A stretch of DNA of 64,000 nucleotides. Source: Mesorhizobium sp. Its GTDB lineage: Bacteria; Pseudomonadota; Alphaproteobacteria; Rhizobiales; Rhizobiaceae. The stretch lies in NCBI GenBank assembly GCA_004020645.1, contig SAQL01000002.1:372001-436000 (forward strand), read 5' to 3'. Both the position numbers and the translations under genes were made by a program. The notes beneath the pieces were generated by a model, which was not told the origin of the DNA, made no database searches, and saw only the letters and a program-made list of their open reading frames with translations. Numbering within the stretch: position 1 is the stretch's first letter; each line of letters begins with the position of its first letter. Shown one piece after another: positions 37,406 to 42,846 of the stretch.

Positions 37406-38251
37406 CTAGGCCTTGCGCTTCCTGCCCTCATCGCGCCGCTTTTCGCCAACCGCAACGGTCAGCGCCATGGCCAGCGCCATCGTTGCCGACAGCGAGCGGA
37501 AGCCGGCAAAATCGGCCTCGGCGACCTCGAACCAGACTTTGGCGAACTGGGCGAGTGGCGAAAAGGAACTGTCGGTGATCGCCACGATCGGCACGCCTTG
37601 CTCGGAAATGACGCGCGCCTCCTCGATGGCCGCCGGGGCATAGGGTGAGAAACTGATGGCGATGACGGCATCCCTGGGCGAGGCAAAGCTGATCATCTCG
37701 GCGTTGAGGCCGGCGGCCGATTCGATCAGCTGGTTGCGGATCTTGAGCTTGCCCAGCGCATAGGCGATGTAGGAGGCGACCGGATACGAGCGGCGCTTGG
37801 CCAGCACATAGATCGTCTCCGCCTTCGCCAGCAGGGCGATCGCATCTTCGAAATGGTCTTCGTTCAGCCTGCCTGAAATATCGTTGAGCGAGGTGCTGGC
37901 CGCGGCGACGAAGCCGTCGAAAATCGCCCGGTGACCGGCGCCTTCCTCCGCCTTGGCGCGCAATGCCGCCAGCCTTTCGTCATAGGACGAATTGCGCTCA
38001 CGCAGGCGCTCGCGGAACACCAGCTGCAGGCTGGTGAAGCCGTCGAAGCCGAGCTGCTGGGCGAAGCGGATCAAGGTCGAAGGCTGGACGCCGGCGGAGG
38101 CGGCAATGCTGGCGGCGGTGCCGAAGGCGATGTCGTCGGGATTGTCGAGCGCATAGGCAGCGATCTGCGCGATGCGCTTGGGCAGGCTATGGCGCCGTTC
38201 CAGGATCGTCGTACGCAGCGTCTCGAAATCGCGGGGCACCCGTTCGTCCAT
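37406..38251 (-). CDS. iolR: RpiR/MurR-family regulator, probable inositol regulator IolR
   Basis: The 281-residue product has an N-terminal RpiR helix-turn-helix (LPKRIAQIAAYALDNPDDIAFGTAASIAASAGVQPSTLIRFAQQLGFDGFTSLQ, residues about 24-77) and a C-terminal SIS sugar-phosphate domain (YVLAKRRSYPVASYIAYAL, VIAISFSPYAPAAIE). In Sinorhizobium the inositol repressor IolR is of this family and is adjacent to iolCDEB. I take the ATG at 38251 (MDERVPRDFETLR). It is divergent from a Gfo/Idh/MocA dehydrogenase gene. Confidence 0.88.
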   Translation of the reverse strand: MDERVPRDFETLRTTILERRHSLPKRIAQIAAYALDNPDDIAFGTAASIAASAGVQPSTLIRFAQQLGFDGFTSLQLVFRERLRERNSSYDERLAALRAKAEEGAGHRAIFDGFVAAASTSLNDISGRLNEDHFEDAIALLAKAETIYVLAKRRSYPVASYIAYALGKLKIRNQLIESAAGLNAEMISFASPRDAVIAISFSPYAPAAIEEARVISEQGVPIVAITDSSFSPLAQFAKVWFEVAEADFAGFRSLSATMALAMALTVAVGEKRRDEGRKRKA

Positions 38252-38341
38252 CGTCGCTCCGCCTAGGTCCATCAGTCGATGCCGTGTGTGCCCCATCATA
38301 GCGAGCCTGTGCAAGAAGGCCATAAAAAATGAGGCATGCGT

Positions 38342-38362
38342 TCCATTTCTGGATAAAATGGA
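38342..38362. promoter_or_regulatory. Inverted repeat between iolR and the divergent dehydrogenase
   Basis: TCCATTT-(7)-AAATGGA is a perfect seven-base-arm inverted repeat 45 bases before the dehydrogenase start and 91 before iolR. It lacks the GGAA-N6-TTCC form and may be a site for a different regulator or a variant IolR site. Confidence 0.45.
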
Positions 38363-38406
38363 CTAATTCATCCACACAAAAACTTTCCGATGGTGGAGGC
38401 AAGGAA

Positions 38407-39516
38407 ATGGTCGGAGTCGGTCTCATCGGCACAGGCTTCATGGGCAAGTGTCACGCCATCGCCTGGAACACGGTCGGCACCGTCTTTCCCGACGTGGCCA
38501 AGCCAAGGCTGGTCCATCTCGGCGAGGTCGACGAGGGGCTTGCCAAGCGCCGTGCGGCCGAATTTGGTTTTGCCAAAGGCTCCGGCGACTGGCGCGCCGT
38601 CGTCGACGATCCGGATGTCGATATCGTCTCGCTGACCACGCCGAACCAGTTCCATCCGGAAATGGCCATCGCCATCCTCGAAGCCGGCAAGCATCTGTGG
38701 TGCGAAAAGCCGATGGCGCCGAGTTTTGCCGACGCGCAAGCCATGGCGGCGGCGGCCAAAAAGTCCGGCAAGGTGGCCGCGCTCGGCTACAACTACATCC
38801 AGAACCCGGCCATCCGTCATATCGGTGCGCTGCTCGACGAGAAGATCATTGGCGAGGTCAACCATCTGCGCATCGAGATGGACGAGGATTTCATGGCCGA
38901 CCCGGAGGCGCAGTTCTTCTGGAAGCACGAGGCGGCGTCCGGTTACGGCGCGCTCGACGATTTCGCCGTGCATCCGCTGTCGCTGGTCGCCGTGCTGTTC
39001 GGCCGCGTCGCCCGCGTCATGTGCGACATGGCGAAACCCTATGCCGATCGCCGCGTCGCATCAGGCGGGCGCCGGGCGGTCGAGACCTACGACATCGCCA
39101 GCGTGCTGATGCATCTCGAAAACGGCATTGCGGGCACGCTGCTGGTCAATCGTTCGGCCTGGGGCCGCAAGGGCCGCATCGCCATCCAGATCTTCGGCTC
39201 GAAGGGCTCGATCCTGTACGATCAGGAGCGGATGAACGAGTTCCAGCTCTATCTCACCGCCGACCGGCCGACCGAGCAAGGCTATCGCACCATCCTGGTG
39301 GCGCCGCATCACAAGCCCTACGACGCCTTTCTGCCGGCACCCGGCCACGGTCTCGGCTTCAACGACCTCAAGATTATCGAATGCCGGGAGCTTTTGACGC
39401 GGCTGACCGGCAAGCCGGCGCGCATCATCGATTTCGACGAAGGACTTGAGATCGAGCGCACCGTGCATGCAATGGCGCGCTCGTTCGAGGAGCAGCGCTG
39501 GATCGCGGTGCGGTAA
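38407..39516 (+). CDS. Gfo/Idh/MocA-family dehydrogenase
   Basis: The 369-residue product has the NAD-binding motif GLIGTGFMGKCHAIAW (residues about 4-19), the cofactor-site Lys in LWCEKPMAPSF (about residue 100) and DDFAVHPLSLV in the substrate domain. It is likely an inositol- or sugar-type dehydrogenase distinct from idhA, since both occur here. Start ATG 38407 follows AAGGA. Control by the adjacent IolR is likely; its substrate (another inositol isomer or a methyl-inositol) is inference. Confidence 0.87.
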   Translation: MVGVGLIGTGFMGKCHAIAWNTVGTVFPDVAKPRLVHLGEVDEGLAKRRAAEFGFAKGSGDWRAVVDDPDVDIVSLTTPNQFHPEMAIAILEAGKHLWCEKPMAPSFADAQAMAAAAKKSGKVAALGYNYIQNPAIRHIGALLDEKIIGEVNHLRIEMDEDFMADPEAQFFWKHEAASGYGALDDFAVHPLSLVAVLFGRVARVMCDMAKPYADRRVASGGRRAVETYDIASVLMHLENGIAGTLLVNRSAWGRKGRIAIQIFGSKGSILYDQERMNEFQLYLTADRPTEQGYRTILVAPHHKPYDAFLPAPGHGLGFNDLKIIECRELLTRLTGKPARIIDFDEGLEIERTVHAMARSFEEQRWIAVR

Positions 39517-39720: not shown

Positions 39721-40812
39721 TCAGGCCGCTCCCGGACGGCTGGCGATCATGGCGCGCCGCGCCGACCGGCGCCGCTCGACGGCGTCGGCAAGGCCGCGCA
39801 GCACCGTCTCGGTGGTTGCCCAGTCGATGCAGCCATCGGTGATGCTCTGGCCATAGACGAGCGGCTTGCCGGGCATGACCTCCTGGCGGCCGGCGACGAG
39901 GTTGCTCTCGATCATCACGCCGATGATGCGCTCATCGCCTGCCGCGACCTGGCCCGCCACGTCAGCCGCCACCATCGGCTGGTTCTCCGGCTTCTTGTTG
40001 CTGTTGGCATGGCTGACATCGATCATCAGCCGAGGTGCGACGCCGGCCCGGCCGAGTTCCGCGCAGGCGGCAGCGATGCTCGTTGCGTGGTAGTTGGGCT
40101 GAATGCCGCCGCGCAGGATGACGTGGCAGTCCTCGTTGCCGGTGGTCGTCGCGATGGCGCTGCGCCCGCCCTTCGTCACCGCCATGAAATGATGCGGCTG
40201 GGCGGCGGATTTCACGGCTTCGGCGGCGATCCGCAAATTTCCGTCGGTGCCGTTCTTGAAGCCGACCGGGCAGGACAGGCCGGATGCAAGTTCTCGATGG
40301 ATCTGGCTCTCTGTCGTGCGCGCGCCGATCGCGCCCCAGGCGACGAGGTCGGCAATGTATTGCGGGGTCGCCATGTCGAGGAATTCGGTCGCCGCCGGAA
40401 GGCCGAGATTGTTGACAGCGGAGAGCACGTTGCGGGCCAGCCTCAGTCCTTTGTCGATGTTGAAGCTGCCGTCCAGGTCGGGATCGTTGATCAGGCCCTT
40501 CCAGCCGACCGTCGTGCGCGGCTTCTCGAAATACACGCGCATCACGATCTCCAGCCGGTCCGACAGACTCTCGCGCAACCCCGCCAGATGGCTGGCATAG
40601 TCTACGGCAGCGGCCGGGTCGTGGATCGAACAGGGGCCGACGACGACGATCAGCCGGTCATCGGCGCCGGTCAGTACGGCGTGGATGGCATTGCGTGACG
40701 CGGCAACGGTGCGCGTCGCCGTCAGCGTGCGCGGTATCTCCCGCATCACCTGGTCCGGCGTACTCAATTCCCTTATTTCCTTGACCCGAAGATCATCGGT
40801 GGTGGTCAACAC
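39721..40812 (-). CDS. aroG: 3-deoxy-7-phosphoheptulonate (DAHP) synthase, class I
   Basis: This enzyme condenses PEP and erythrose 4-phosphate, the first step to Phe, Tyr and Trp. The 363-residue protein is the AroF/G/H type: VVVGPCSIHDPAAAVDYA, VYFEKPRTTVGWKGLINDP, GARTTESQIHRELASGL, VGFKNGTDG and IDVSHANSNKKP. It starts with GTG at 40812, with AGGAG upstream. Paralogue letter (F, G or H) cannot be decided from sequence by eye. The gene is preceded by a transcription attenuator with an aromatic leader peptide, not an enzyme-independent constitutive leader. Confidence 0.95.
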   Translation of the reverse strand: MLTTTDDLRVKEIRELSTPDQVMREIPRTLTATRTVAASRNAIHAVLTGADDRLIVVVGPCSIHDPAAAVDYASHLAGLRESLSDRLEIVMRVYFEKPRTTVGWKGLINDPDLDGSFNIDKGLRLARNVLSAVNNLGLPAATEFLDMATPQYIADLVAWGAIGARTTESQIHRELASGLSCPVGFKNGTDGNLRIAAEAVKSAAQPHHFMAVTKGGRSAIATTTGNEDCHVILRGGIQPNYHATSIAAACAELGRAGVAPRLMIDVSHANSNKKPENQPMVAADVAGQVAAGDERIIGVMIESNLVAGRQEVMPGKPLVYGQSITDGCIDWATTETVLRGLADAVERRRSARRAMIASRPGAA

Positions 40813-40851
40813 GGCTTTCTGCTCCTGGTTGGGAGACCTGCCGGCTGAAAC

Positions 40852-40875
40852 AAAAAAGCCGCCAGGTCTGGCGGC
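40852..40875 (-). terminator. Attenuator terminator before the DAHP synthase gene
   Basis: On the minus strand GCCGCCAG and CTGGCGGC form an eight-pair stem followed by six U residues, 40 bases before the structural gene. The 3' arm sequence CTGGCGGC recurs exactly inside the leader ORF at 40923-40930, so it can pair with the 5' arm and prevent the terminator. Confidence 0.85.
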
Positions 40876-40900
40876 TGTTCGGATGTTGTTGCTGCAATCT

Positions 40901-40978
40901 TCAGATCGAGCGCAATCCTCCCGCCGCCAGCGAGCTGTCGTAGCTAAAGTACCAGAACGAGGCGGTCAGGTGGATCAT
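40901..40978 (-). CDS. Aromatic leader peptide of the DAHP synthase attenuator
   Basis: A 25-codon ORF (MIHLTASFWYFSYDSS..., ending LRSI) has Phe-Trp-Tyr-Phe-Ser-Tyr at residues 8-13, all three aromatic amino acids. Codons 17-19 form the antiterminator arm. Stalling at the aromatic codons would leave that arm free to pair with the terminator 5' arm; reading to the stop codon (26 bases before the hairpin) would cover it. The -10 box ends six bases before the ATG, so the RNA may begin at the A of the start codon, as known for the Sinorhizobium trp leader. Confidence 0.85.
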   Translation of the reverse strand: MIHLTASFWYFSYDSSLAAGGLRSI

Positions 40979-40984
40979 GTCAGC

Positions 40985-41013
40985 CCTATAGCTGAAGCCG
41001 GGGCGCTTGTCAC
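40985..41013 (-). promoter_or_regulatory. Promoter of the DAHP synthase leader
   Basis: On the minus strand GTGACA (41013-41008) and TATAGG (40990-40985) are separated by exactly 17 bases, a good sigma-70 arrangement. The predicted first transcribed base falls at or next to the A of the leader ATG at 40978. It lies 14 bases past the stop of the upstream SDR gene. Confidence 0.65.
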
Positions 41014-41026
41014 GCGTCCGATGATG

Positions 41027-41821
41027 CTACTCCGGAGACGACCCGGCAACGTTCTGGTCGTAGTCGACCAGCGATCCGGTCATGACGCCTGATTGCGGGC
41101 TGACCATATAGCTGATCAGCCGGGCAAGCTGGTCCGGCTTCACCAATTGGCCCATCGGCTGCGCGGCCTCGGCCTTTTCCAGCCAGTCGTCCGGCGCGTC
41201 GTGCCATTTCTTCTGCACGATCGCCTCGCCCTCGGTATCCATCCAGCCGGGCAGCACGGCGTTGCAGCGGATCCGATTGCTGCGGTAGGCATTGGCGACA
41301 TTCTTGGTCAGCGTCGCCAGTGCTCCCTTGCTCGACGAATAGGGCGCCAGGAACGATTGGCCACAATGCGCCGACATCGACAGCACATTGACGATCGAGC
41401 CGGGCGCCTTGCGGTCGAGCAGGTGTGCCACCACACCCTGCATCAGGAAGAAGGGGCCGCGCACATTGGTCTGGAATATCTGGTCGAATATTTCCTCGGA
41501 GGTCTCGACCAGTGAGCCGCGGGCCGAGGTGGCTGCAGCGTTGACCAGCGCATTGACGGTGCCGAAATGAGCGATCGCCGCTTCGACGACCCGCTTGCAG
41601 TCGGCCACCACTGAGACGTCGGCGCTGATGAAGATGGCGTCGACGCCGTTTTTCGCAAGTGCGGCGACCGCCTTGTCGCCCTTTTCCCTGGAACGGCCAA
41701 CCAGCGCTAGCGCCCGGCAGCCCTCGTCGGCCAGCGTCTCGGCGACGGCGAAGCCGATGCCCTGCGCGCCGCCGGTGACGATGGCGCGTGTTTCGGAATT
41801 GCGACCGGCGGAACCGTTCAT
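41027..41821 (-). CDS. SDR-family oxidoreductase of the inositol unit
   Basis: The 264-residue classical SDR has VTGGAQGIGFAVAETLA (residues about 14-30), NAAATSARG, catalytic Ser in NVLSMSAHCG, and YSSSKGALATL (Tyr-x-x-x-Lys, about residue 160). It starts 23 bases after idhA ends, with AGGAG before its ATG, so it is part of the same operon; a role as a second inositol- or inosose-type dehydrogenase is inference. Its 3' end abuts the DAHP synthase promoter. Confidence 0.88.
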   Translation of the reverse strand: MNGSAGRNSETRAIVTGGAQGIGFAVAETLADEGCRALALVGRSREKGDKAVAALAKNGVDAIFISADVSVVADCKRVVEAAIAHFGTVNALVNAAATSARGSLVETSEEIFDQIFQTNVRGPFFLMQGVVAHLLDRKAPGSIVNVLSMSAHCGQSFLAPYSSSKGALATLTKNVANAYRSNRIRCNAVLPGWMDTEGEAIVQKKWHDAPDDWLEKAEAAQPMGQLVKPDQLARLISYMVSPQSGVMTGSLVDYDQNVAGSSPE

Positions 41822-41844: not shown

Positions 41845-42846
41845 TCAGATGGTCTTGTCGAGGCGGATGGTCTTGCCTTCCCTAGCCGATTTCAGCGCCG
41901 CGTCCGCCAACCTCAGCGCGACGAGCCCGTCCTTGCCGCTCGGCGCCGCCTTCTTGCCTGACGTCGCTGCCGCGATGAAGGCGGCGATCTCGTTGGCGTA
42001 GGCGTCGAGATAGCGGGTCATGAAGAAGTCGTGCAGCGGCGGGCGCGTATAGCCCTTTTCGTTGGCCAGCTCGATCAACACCGGCCGCTGGTTCTCGGCC
42101 GCGACCATGCCTTTCGAGCCATGCACCTCGATGCGCTGGTCGTAGCCGTAAGTGGCGCGCCGCGAATTGGAGATGATGCACTGCTTGCCGGAGGCGGTTT
42201 CGAGGATGACGCTGACGCTGTCGAAATCGCCGGCCTGGCCGATTTGTTTGTCGACCAGCACCGAGGCATGGGCGCTGACCGCCACCGGCTCCTCGCCGAG
42301 CAGGAAGCGCGCCATATCGAAATCATGGATGGTCATGTCGCGGAAGATGCCGCCCGAGCGGCCGATATAGTCGAGCGGCGGCGGGCCTGGATCGCGCGAC
42401 GTGATGGTCACCATCTCGACGGTGCCGATGGCGCCGTCGTCGATCGCCTTGCGCACGGCGGCGAAATGCGGATCGAAGCGGCGGTTGAAGCCGACCATCA
42501 AAGTGGCGCCGGCCTTGTCGACCACGGCCAGGCATTCTTCCACTCTGCCGGCGTCGAGGTCGATCGGCTTCTCGCAGAAGATCGCCTTGCCGGCCTTGGC
42601 GAACCGCTCGATCAGATCGGCATGGGTGTCGGTCGGCGTGCAGATAATGACCGCATCGATATCCCCGGCTTTCTCGATGGCCTCGATGCTGCGTACTTCA
42701 GCACCATAGGCCGACGCCAGATCCGTCGCGGCCTTCTCGAAGGCATCGGCAACTGCGACCAGCCTGGCCTGCGGATTGGAGCCGACGGCACGGGCGTGGA
42801 CCTTGCCGATGCGGCCGGCACCGAGAAGAGCGAAGCGGAGAGGCAT
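41845..42846 (-). CDS. idhA: Inositol 2-dehydrogenase
   Basis: IdhA oxidises myo-inositol to 2-keto-myo-inositol (scyllo-inosose), the entry step for IolE. The 333-residue Gfo/Idh/MocA protein has ALLGAGRIGKVHARAV (residues about 6-21), the cofactor Lys in IFCEKPIDLD (about residue 93), and GGIFRDMTIHDFDMARFLLGEEP with catalytic Asp and His near residues 168-172. The sequence is typical of rhizobial IdhA. It lies 130 bases downstream of the ABC ATPase gene. Confidence 0.93.
   Translation of the reverse strand: MPLRFALLGAGRIGKVHARAVGSNPQARLVAVADAFEKAATDLASAYGAEVRSIEAIEKAGDIDAVIICTPTDTHADLIERFAKAGKAIFCEKPIDLDAGRVEECLAVVDKAGATLMVGFNRRFDPHFAAVRKAIDDGAIGTVEMVTITSRDPGPPPLDYIGRSGGIFRDMTIHDFDMARFLLGEEPVAVSAHASVLVDKQIGQAGDFDSVSVILETASGKQCIISNSRRATYGYDQRIEVHGSKGMVAAENQRPVLIELANEKGYTRPPLHDFFMTRYLDAYANEIAAFIAAATSGKKAAPSGKDGLVALRLADAALKSAREGKTIRLDKTI

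Follow-up and report, generated by a model that had tools for sequence, protein, structure and literature searches.

A putative attenuator preceding the DAHP synthase gene aroG of Mesorhizobium and other Proteobacteria, with an aromatic leader peptide and, in Alphaproteobacteria, a probably leaderless RNA and a candidate fifth arm behind the terminator

In Mesorhizobium sp., aroG, encoding a class I DAHP synthase, is preceded by what is very probably (at roughly 0.92) a ribosome-mediated transcription attenuator read from a leaderless RNA, as judged from sequence comparison and folding models. The locus lies on the minus strand of the 64,000-nucleotide stretch of DNA analysed here (contig SAQL01000002.1, positions 372,001 to 436,000; hereafter the window), and the aroG leader has the structural features that define a trp-type attenuator. 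An intrinsic terminator is present between leader and aroG, and a leader segment is predicted to pair with the 5′ arm of this terminator, excluding it. From the parts, their conservation and the exclusive pairings found in folding calculations, we infer where transcription would start, where it would terminate and to which amino acids it would respond. The elements are as follows.

41008-41013, minus strand: -35 element GTGACA, from direct reading of the sequence
40985-40990, minus strand: -10 element TATAGG, 17 bases from the -35 element and followed by 6 bases and then the ATG
40901-40978, minus strand: leader ORF, MIHLTASFWYFSYDSSLAAGGLRSI, with its ATG at 40978, 25 codons and TGA
40940-40957, minus strand: codons 8-13 of the leader (F W Y F S Y), the control codons, a core conserved in relatives
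40961-40976, minus strand: arm 1, from the minimum-energy structure; predicted partner of arm 2 when no ribosome is stalled
40914-40930, minus strand: arm 2 (CTGGCGGCGGGAGGATT), from folding; predicted partner of arm 1, or of arm 3 (antiterminator)
40869-40876, minus strand: arm 3 (AGCCGCCA), the terminator 5′ arm, from folding and a terminator scan
40857-40864, minus strand: arm 4 (TGGCGGCT), the terminator 3′ arm, from folding and a terminator scan
40876-40857, minus strand: terminator AGCCGCCA-GACC-TGGCGGCT, with arm 4 running into the T-run at 40857-40852
40836-40846, minus strand: arm 5 (AGCCGGCAGGT), partner ACCTGGCGGCT at 40867-40857, from pairing tests
40822-40826, minus strand: Shine-Dalgarno sequence AGGAG of aroG, identified by eye, 9 bases upstream of the GTG start
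39721-40812, minus strand: aroG, class I DAHP synthase, GTG start, with Pfam and TIGR matches

The aroG product matches Pfam DAHP_synth_1 (E=6.7e-92) and scores above the cut-off of TIGR00034 (aroFGH); it is the single class I DAHP synthase match in the window's own genome, and its closest relatives among the matches listed are from Mesorhizobium (88-90% protein identity). Upstream on the same strand, a gene for an SDR-type oxidoreductase ends at 41027, 48 bases ahead of the leader ATG. Neighbouring genes at 41845-42846 and 37406-39516 encode IolG (inositol 2-dehydrogenase, TIGR04380 above cut-off), a Gfo/Idh/MocA oxidoreductase and an RpiR-type regulator, and the aroG unit seems to lie within an unrelated sugar/inositol catabolic region.

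A preliminary description of this DNA had reported a 25-codon ORF with FWYFSY at codons 8-13, and reading of the minus strand bears this out. Among 991 small ORFs of 10-60 amino acids on both strands of the window, this leader alone has five aromatic residues in six. Related leaders have similar cores, including SYFWYFSYD in Bradyrhizobium, FYWYFSYP in a Devosia, FYFYFFWHL in Burkholderia and FYFWYYGFP in Xanthomonas, and the peptide sequence is variable outside the aromatic core. Every one of the 70 non-redundant leaders has both Phe and Tyr in its core, and Trp is present in 29 of the 34 cores from Alphaproteobacteria and 18 of the 36 from Beta- and Gammaproteobacteria. Codon choice for Phe is also distinctive: the rare codon TTT accounts for 60/80 Phe codons in alphaproteobacterial leaders, compared with 12/183 in the first 1050 bases of aroG (Fisher test, 1e-29), and for 108/144 in beta/gamma leaders compared with 53/234 in aroG. 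Tyr TAT is only slightly raised in leaders (p 0.04). The TTT bias could reflect slow decoding that makes sensing sharper, or a requirement for an unstructured loop.

A separate observation concerns the hexamer TTTAGC (Phe-Ser) that follows WY at 40943-40948 in the window, where the letters, and not the amino acids alone, are conserved. Where Phe stands after an aromatic residue and before Ser or Gly in alphaproteobacterial leaders, it is encoded by TTT in 27/28 cases and the next codon is AGC in 24/28; TTTAGC is found in Oxalobacteraceae loci too. Candidate causes of this conservation are a slow codon, pausing or structure.

The proposed mechanism is as follows. Transcription would begin at the leader ATG. 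When the leader is translated without delay, arm 1 would pair with arm 2 and arm 3 with arm 4, and polymerase would stop in the T-run. When tRNA for Phe, Trp or Tyr is uncharged, a ribosome would halt on codons 8-10 (in part also on 11) and cover arm 1, so that arm 2 would pair with arm 3 and polymerase would read into aroG. In Alphaproteobacteria, the read-through RNA may form one more helix, in which arm 4 pairs with an arm located past the T-run, arm 5.

Several lines of evidence from conservation and folding back this attenuation reading. Codons 17-19 hold CTGGCGGC (40930-40923), whose letters are, as first reported, identical to those of 40865-40858 in the 3′ half of the terminator hairpin, and folding calculations agree with the earlier suggestion that antiterminator and terminator are mutually exclusive. 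The folding check that had been proposed gave a 133-nt RNA, from the ATG to just past the terminator, that is more stable than 199 of 200 shuffles (z −2.94). Comparison with relatives, named at the outset as one of the tests that could overturn the reading, found the aromatic codons, the GGCGG element and the complement of that element all conserved. Across an alignment of 34 leaders, the GGCGG of arm 2 varies little or not at all, and it is kept even where the reading frame differs (e.g., LTGG in L129 and CHRRD in L081); across these sequences, arm 2 is conserved as RNA. Its mean pairing energy with arm 3 is stronger than that of synonymous recodings, at −14.4 versus −12.1 kcal/mol in Alphaproteobacteria and −15.6 versus −10.7 kcal/mol in the beta/gamma set, with p<0.05 reached by only 3/34 and 6/36 single sequences, respectively; the test is weak per sequence because the peptide residues L-A already dictate the majority of the bases. 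Applied to the alignment of 34 rows, RNAalifold recovered the terminator and a 3-pair stem with an invariant core. Only 1 of 10 pairs in the pairing core has changed on both sides, a degree of conservation that makes covariation unable to test the pairing of arm 2 with arm 3.

In the window, the equilibrium probability of the terminator with a simulated ribosome was predicted to be 0.95 with no ribosome, 0.05 with the ribosome at F8 or W9, 0.14 at Y10, 0.64 at F11, and again 0.95 at Y13 and at the stop codon. For the stage at which arm 4 has yet to be transcribed, the predicted pairing of arm 3 with the leader reached at least 0.5 under the most favourable stall in 34/34 alphaproteobacterial and 34/36 beta/gamma loci. 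Without a ribosome, the mean of this pairing was 0.42 and 0.44, respectively; a stall raised it by more than 0.2 in only 17/34 and 16/36 loci, and in the window it was 0.85 without a ribosome versus 0.87 with a stall. At equilibrium with the most favourable stall, the terminator often persisted (mean 0.78 and 0.76, respectively). In these models, the equilibrium values for the window show a clear ribosome-dependent switch; across the whole set it appears in part, and by neither measure throughout. Overall, the predicted switch is well supported as anatomy, and its dynamics are putative.

It is possible, although less probable, that only Phe, or one of the three amino acids, controls aroG and that the other aromatic codons are passengers. 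The leader of Corynebacterium glutamicum would be a precedent, as it is described in the available part of PMC11802643 as answering Phe limitation and not Tyr; the enrichment of TTT far above that of TAT points the same way, as does the lack of Trp from the core of 5/34 alphaproteobacterial and 18/36 beta/gamma leaders. However, stalls at F8, W9 and Y10 are predicted to have a near-equal outcome in the window, and every core retains Phe and Tyr, with Trp in most alphaproteobacterial cores. For this entry step of aromatic synthesis, a likely regulator is one that responds to two or three amino acids together.

The second part of the main reading, that the RNA is leaderless, depends on the promoter. 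The -35/-10 pair with 17-base spacing that had been said to place the transcription start at the leader ATG is present, and its geometry is conserved, which makes the ATG the probable start. By sigma-70 rules, the GTGACA/TATAGG pair appears weak, and it is its conservation that speaks for it; a strict promoter scan of the window listed no promoter at the leader, since the scan demands T at position 6 of the -10 element. In 72/78 alphaproteobacterial leaders, a -35 element GTGACA, TCGACA or ATGACA is found no more than 40 bases from the ATG, and in 72/78 as well the best -35/-10 pair stops 6-7 bases short of the ATG. (The 78 derive from 82 loci with terminator and ORF, less a copy of L127 (L138), a near copy of L126 (L130), and two loci, L055 and L143, with fewer than three aromatic residues in seven.) Among non-redundant alphaproteobacterial leaders, the gap of 6-7 bases from -10 element to ATG was found in 30/34, compared with 8% of shuffles. 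None of the 34 has a Shine-Dalgarno sequence before the leader at anti-SD binding of −4 kcal/mol or stronger, and the mean binding is as in shuffles. Among 29 Mesorhizobium-like loci, mean similarity is 0.45 above the promoter, 0.77 in the promoter and 0.89 in the leader. These comparisons indicate that leaderless geometry is conserved in Alphaproteobacteria, and the promoter spacing strongly suggests transcription from the leader ATG there. In such a form, translation can begin on the nascent RNA without a 5′ UTR.

Alternatively, the leader might be part of a longer RNA that has a 5′ UTR and originates at a promoter further up or in read-through from the upstream SDR gene, in which case the device would be an attenuator but not leaderless. 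The SDR gene is suitably placed, being on the same strand and ending 48 bases before the ATG; the -10 element TATAGG is weak and was passed over by the strict scan; and by eye, Burkholderia-type loci have TATAAA about 35-40 bases before the ATG, which makes a 5′ UTR likely in those loci. For the Alphaproteobacteria we consider this quite improbable, given the fixed 6-7 base gap in 30/34 leaders, the absence of Shine-Dalgarno sequences from all 34, and upstream DNA that diverges more than the promoter. The same promoter-to-ATG geometry is also kept, by eye, in Paracoccus. Leaderless transcription is the preferred reading for this class.

In the beta/gamma set the gap of 6-7 bases was found in 7/35 leaders; the geometry is not fixed, and a leaderless start would thus characterise the alphaproteobacterial branch. 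In Xanthomonadales the gap is often 7-8 bases by eye, and a leaderless start is perhaps present there too. A Shine-Dalgarno sequence above the same threshold preceded 1/36 beta/gamma leaders. Leaders of Burkholderiales (L052, L061, L071 and others) have no Shine-Dalgarno sequence, and a TATA-like box lies about 15-40 bases upstream of them. The trpE(G) locus of the window's own genome (L161:1249-1420) has a leader, MNMRSIKTVWWWAR, that looks leaderless by eye, with TATTGG 7 bases before the first ATG; a terminator is present and a fifth arm is lacking (p 0.565).

A locus was scored as carrying the attenuator when four of seven leader residues were aromatic (F, W or Y) and a terminator followed. 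The search across the window's order that had been proposed as a check (Hyphomicrobiales; 297 genomes sampled, E 1e-60) found leader and terminator in all 39 genomes that carry the enzyme, the window's own included. Elsewhere in the class, the enzyme was found in 8 of 336 other genomes sampled, with leader and terminator in 6 of the 8; one of the remaining loci was cut off by its contig and one was weak. In a wider set from named genomes, consisting of the best 80 loci of at least 591 confirmed, 57 have leader and terminator and two more are weaker, spread over Alphaproteobacteria, Betaproteobacteria and Xanthomonadales. In a phylum-wide draw, 225/398 genomes had the enzyme, and 13 of 14 newly fetched loci that were examined have an aromatic ORF and a hairpin; L156 has neither, and L159 comes from the same genome as L136. 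By eye, a copy on a Paracoccus plasmid is laid out in the same way, with its leader ORF missing from a gene table that is itself incomplete.

No leader with terminator was found at the Erwinia, Pantoea, Citrobacter, Buttiauxella and Enterovibrio loci (L088, L091, L092, L094, L095, L098, L099), among them the Enterobacterales loci of the best 80, or in some of the Betaproteobacteria, namely Thauera (L089), Azoarcus (L093), Ferrovum (L101), Chitinimonas (L102 and L104) and Methylotenera (L103). The script returned no terminator-plus-ORF in 22 loci, including L059 and L140, which have too little upstream DNA; two that it failed, L064 and L079, have by eye an aromatic ORF and a terminator-like hairpin. 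The beta/gamma set comprised 42 loci with the required 4 of 7 aromatic residues. A search for a strict pattern of the element matched in 11/150 genomes, 10 of these lying by coordinates just upstream of an aroG match. Occurrence of the element before other genes was rejected: the sole match away from aroG, in G120, is probably due to chance, as a backward control also matched once. The likely regulator is spread over many Alpha- and Betaproteobacteria and Xanthomonadales.

Directly past the T-run, alphaproteobacterial loci carry a copy of the terminator 5′ arm (GCCGCCGG and variants), arm 5, that pairs with the 3′ arm. In the window its partner, ACCTGGCGGCT (40867-40857), consists of arm 4 and three bases of the terminator loop, and the helix has one G-G mismatch. 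Pairing of arm 4 with arm 5 is stronger than in dinucleotide shuffles at p<0.05 in 28/34 alphaproteobacterial loci, and falls short of this level in six (L022, L036, L126, L136, L145, L146). Since the helix extends into bases of the terminator loop, the terminator cannot explain them: 78/102 of these bases are paired with arm 5, compared with 42.6 ± 6.1 when loop flanks are permuted, and none of 500 permutations reached the observed value. When partners were swapped, 0/300 matched the mean energy of arm 5 with its own partner. Relatedness is partly controlled in the permutation tests by cuts at 90, 80 and 72%, with 2/400 and 0/400 permutations reaching the observed loop pairing in sets of 18 and 11 more distant sequences. 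The helix between arm 4 and arm 5 is therefore supported by covariation in Alphaproteobacteria. Outside this class, p<0.05 was reached in 3/36 beta/gamma loci, those of Rhodanobacter (L045), Xanthomonas (L065) and [Pseudomonas] boreopolis (L085), all Xanthomonadales; loop covariation with arm 5 was not detected in the beta/gamma set (138/400 permutations reached the observed value).

We considered whether arm 5 might be a GC-rich accident, or a part of the aroG ribosome site, and so no element of the attenuator. It sits only 9 bases ahead of the aroG Shine-Dalgarno sequence in the window, and p<0.05 is missed by six of the 34 alphaproteobacterial and 33/36 beta/gamma loci. Nevertheless, an accident is improbable in light of the shuffles, loop permutations and partner swaps, and it is also opposed by comparison with other terminators. 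In a small control of 12 other terminators in the alphaproteobacterial loci, which left out everything up to about 320 bases upstream of aroG and includes one aroG terminator read on its opposite strand (L036) and a trp attenuator (L169), none had a fifth arm at p<0.05 (median 0.755). Among 14 trp leaders, those found among 24 trp loci of the window's order, one fell below p=0.05 and two lay at 0.050; most trp leaders are without arm 5, and the idea that it is general to rhizobial attenuators was rejected. A part in the ribosome site is likewise opposed by the predicted access to the aroG Shine-Dalgarno sequence, which is unchanged by arm 5 (mean 0.39 to 0.40). That arm 5 opens or closes this site was also rejected, as access showed no consistent change (up by more than 0.1 in 10/34 loci, down in 6/34).

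A five-arm attenuator is rather probable, on balance: termination would use the pairings 1:2 and 3:4, and read-through 2:3 and 4:5, with arm 5 locking the terminator 3′ arm in read-through RNA. It would be kept in most of the aroG-bearing Alphaproteobacteria examined, with traces in Xanthomonadales, and seems peculiar to the aroG attenuator. Arm 5 is transcribed once termination has been decided, and its target is therefore probably the read-through RNA rather than that decision; candidate roles there are holding arm 4 off arm 3, a pause of polymerase, or an effect on RNA stability. For attenuator design, this arm past the T-run offers a new element that can be tested.

The released leader RNA or peptide could also act in trans, by analogy with rnTrpL and peTrpL of Sinorhizobium. 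The architecture of rnTrpL, as described in the available parts of PMC7298713 and PMC10117765, is shared: both are short, end in a strong terminator and are leaderless, in the window by its geometry. Such a role nonetheless seems quite doubtful here, as the peptide varies outside the aromatic core in the way expected for a role in cis, and we favour attenuation in cis of aroG.

Comparison with described RNAs returned no Rfam match at gathering score in the window and seven loci tested; Phe_leader (RF01859) scored 20 bits in the window, against a gathering score of 55. The alphaproteobacterial sRNA BjrC1505 was rejected as an identity, with 14.2 bits against 50 in the window and no match in Bradyrhizobium (L028). 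An open-access literature search, only partly aimed at aroG, returned no account of this aroG attenuator family, and the passages available of PMC2965389, PMC4842269, PMC5082802, PMC7143759, PMC4603805 and PMC5596092 do not mention the attenuator.

The preliminary description had held that attenuation of the first shikimate step by all three aromatics, from a leaderless RNA, was not known to be described. Attenuation of that step as such is in print for C. glutamicum and, as a proposal, for Acholeplasma; the three-aromatic leaderless form was not found in print. In C. glutamicum, aroR-aroF is a ribosome-mediated attenuator in which an aromatic leader peptide is encoded ahead of a DAHP synthase gene, as proposed for the window (Neshat et al., 2014, as cited in parts of PMC11802643 and PMC4046766). 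It belongs to an Actinobacterium, however, and has Phe-Tyr-Phe only, and the available passages, which report a response to Phe limitation and not to Tyr (PMC11802643), mention neither a fifth arm nor a codon bias. In Acholeplasma, uORFC-13-1 upstream of aroF is a short ORF that contains one or more Phe codons and is accompanied by a terminator, and attenuation has been proposed for it (PMC8632094, in part). It resembles the window in having a short Phe-containing ORF and a terminator before a DAHP synthase gene; it differs in having a ribosome binding site, and is reported there only from Acholeplasma and environmental sequences. Attenuation of E. coli aroF was once hypothesised, according to the same source, and E. 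coli pheL-pheA and trpL use the mechanism proposed here (PMC11802643, in part). A further related system is trpL-trpE(G) of Sinorhizobium meliloti, an alphaproteobacterial ribosome-mediated attenuator with a leaderless leader ORF, and the source of rnTrpL and peTrpL, which in the passages available responds to Trp only and precedes a different gene (PMC7298713, PMC10117765). What appears new, as far as we have searched, is how widely the aroG attenuator is distributed, the three-amino-acid core in most alphaproteobacterial leaders, the conservation of a leaderless promoter, the preference for TTT and the fifth arm.
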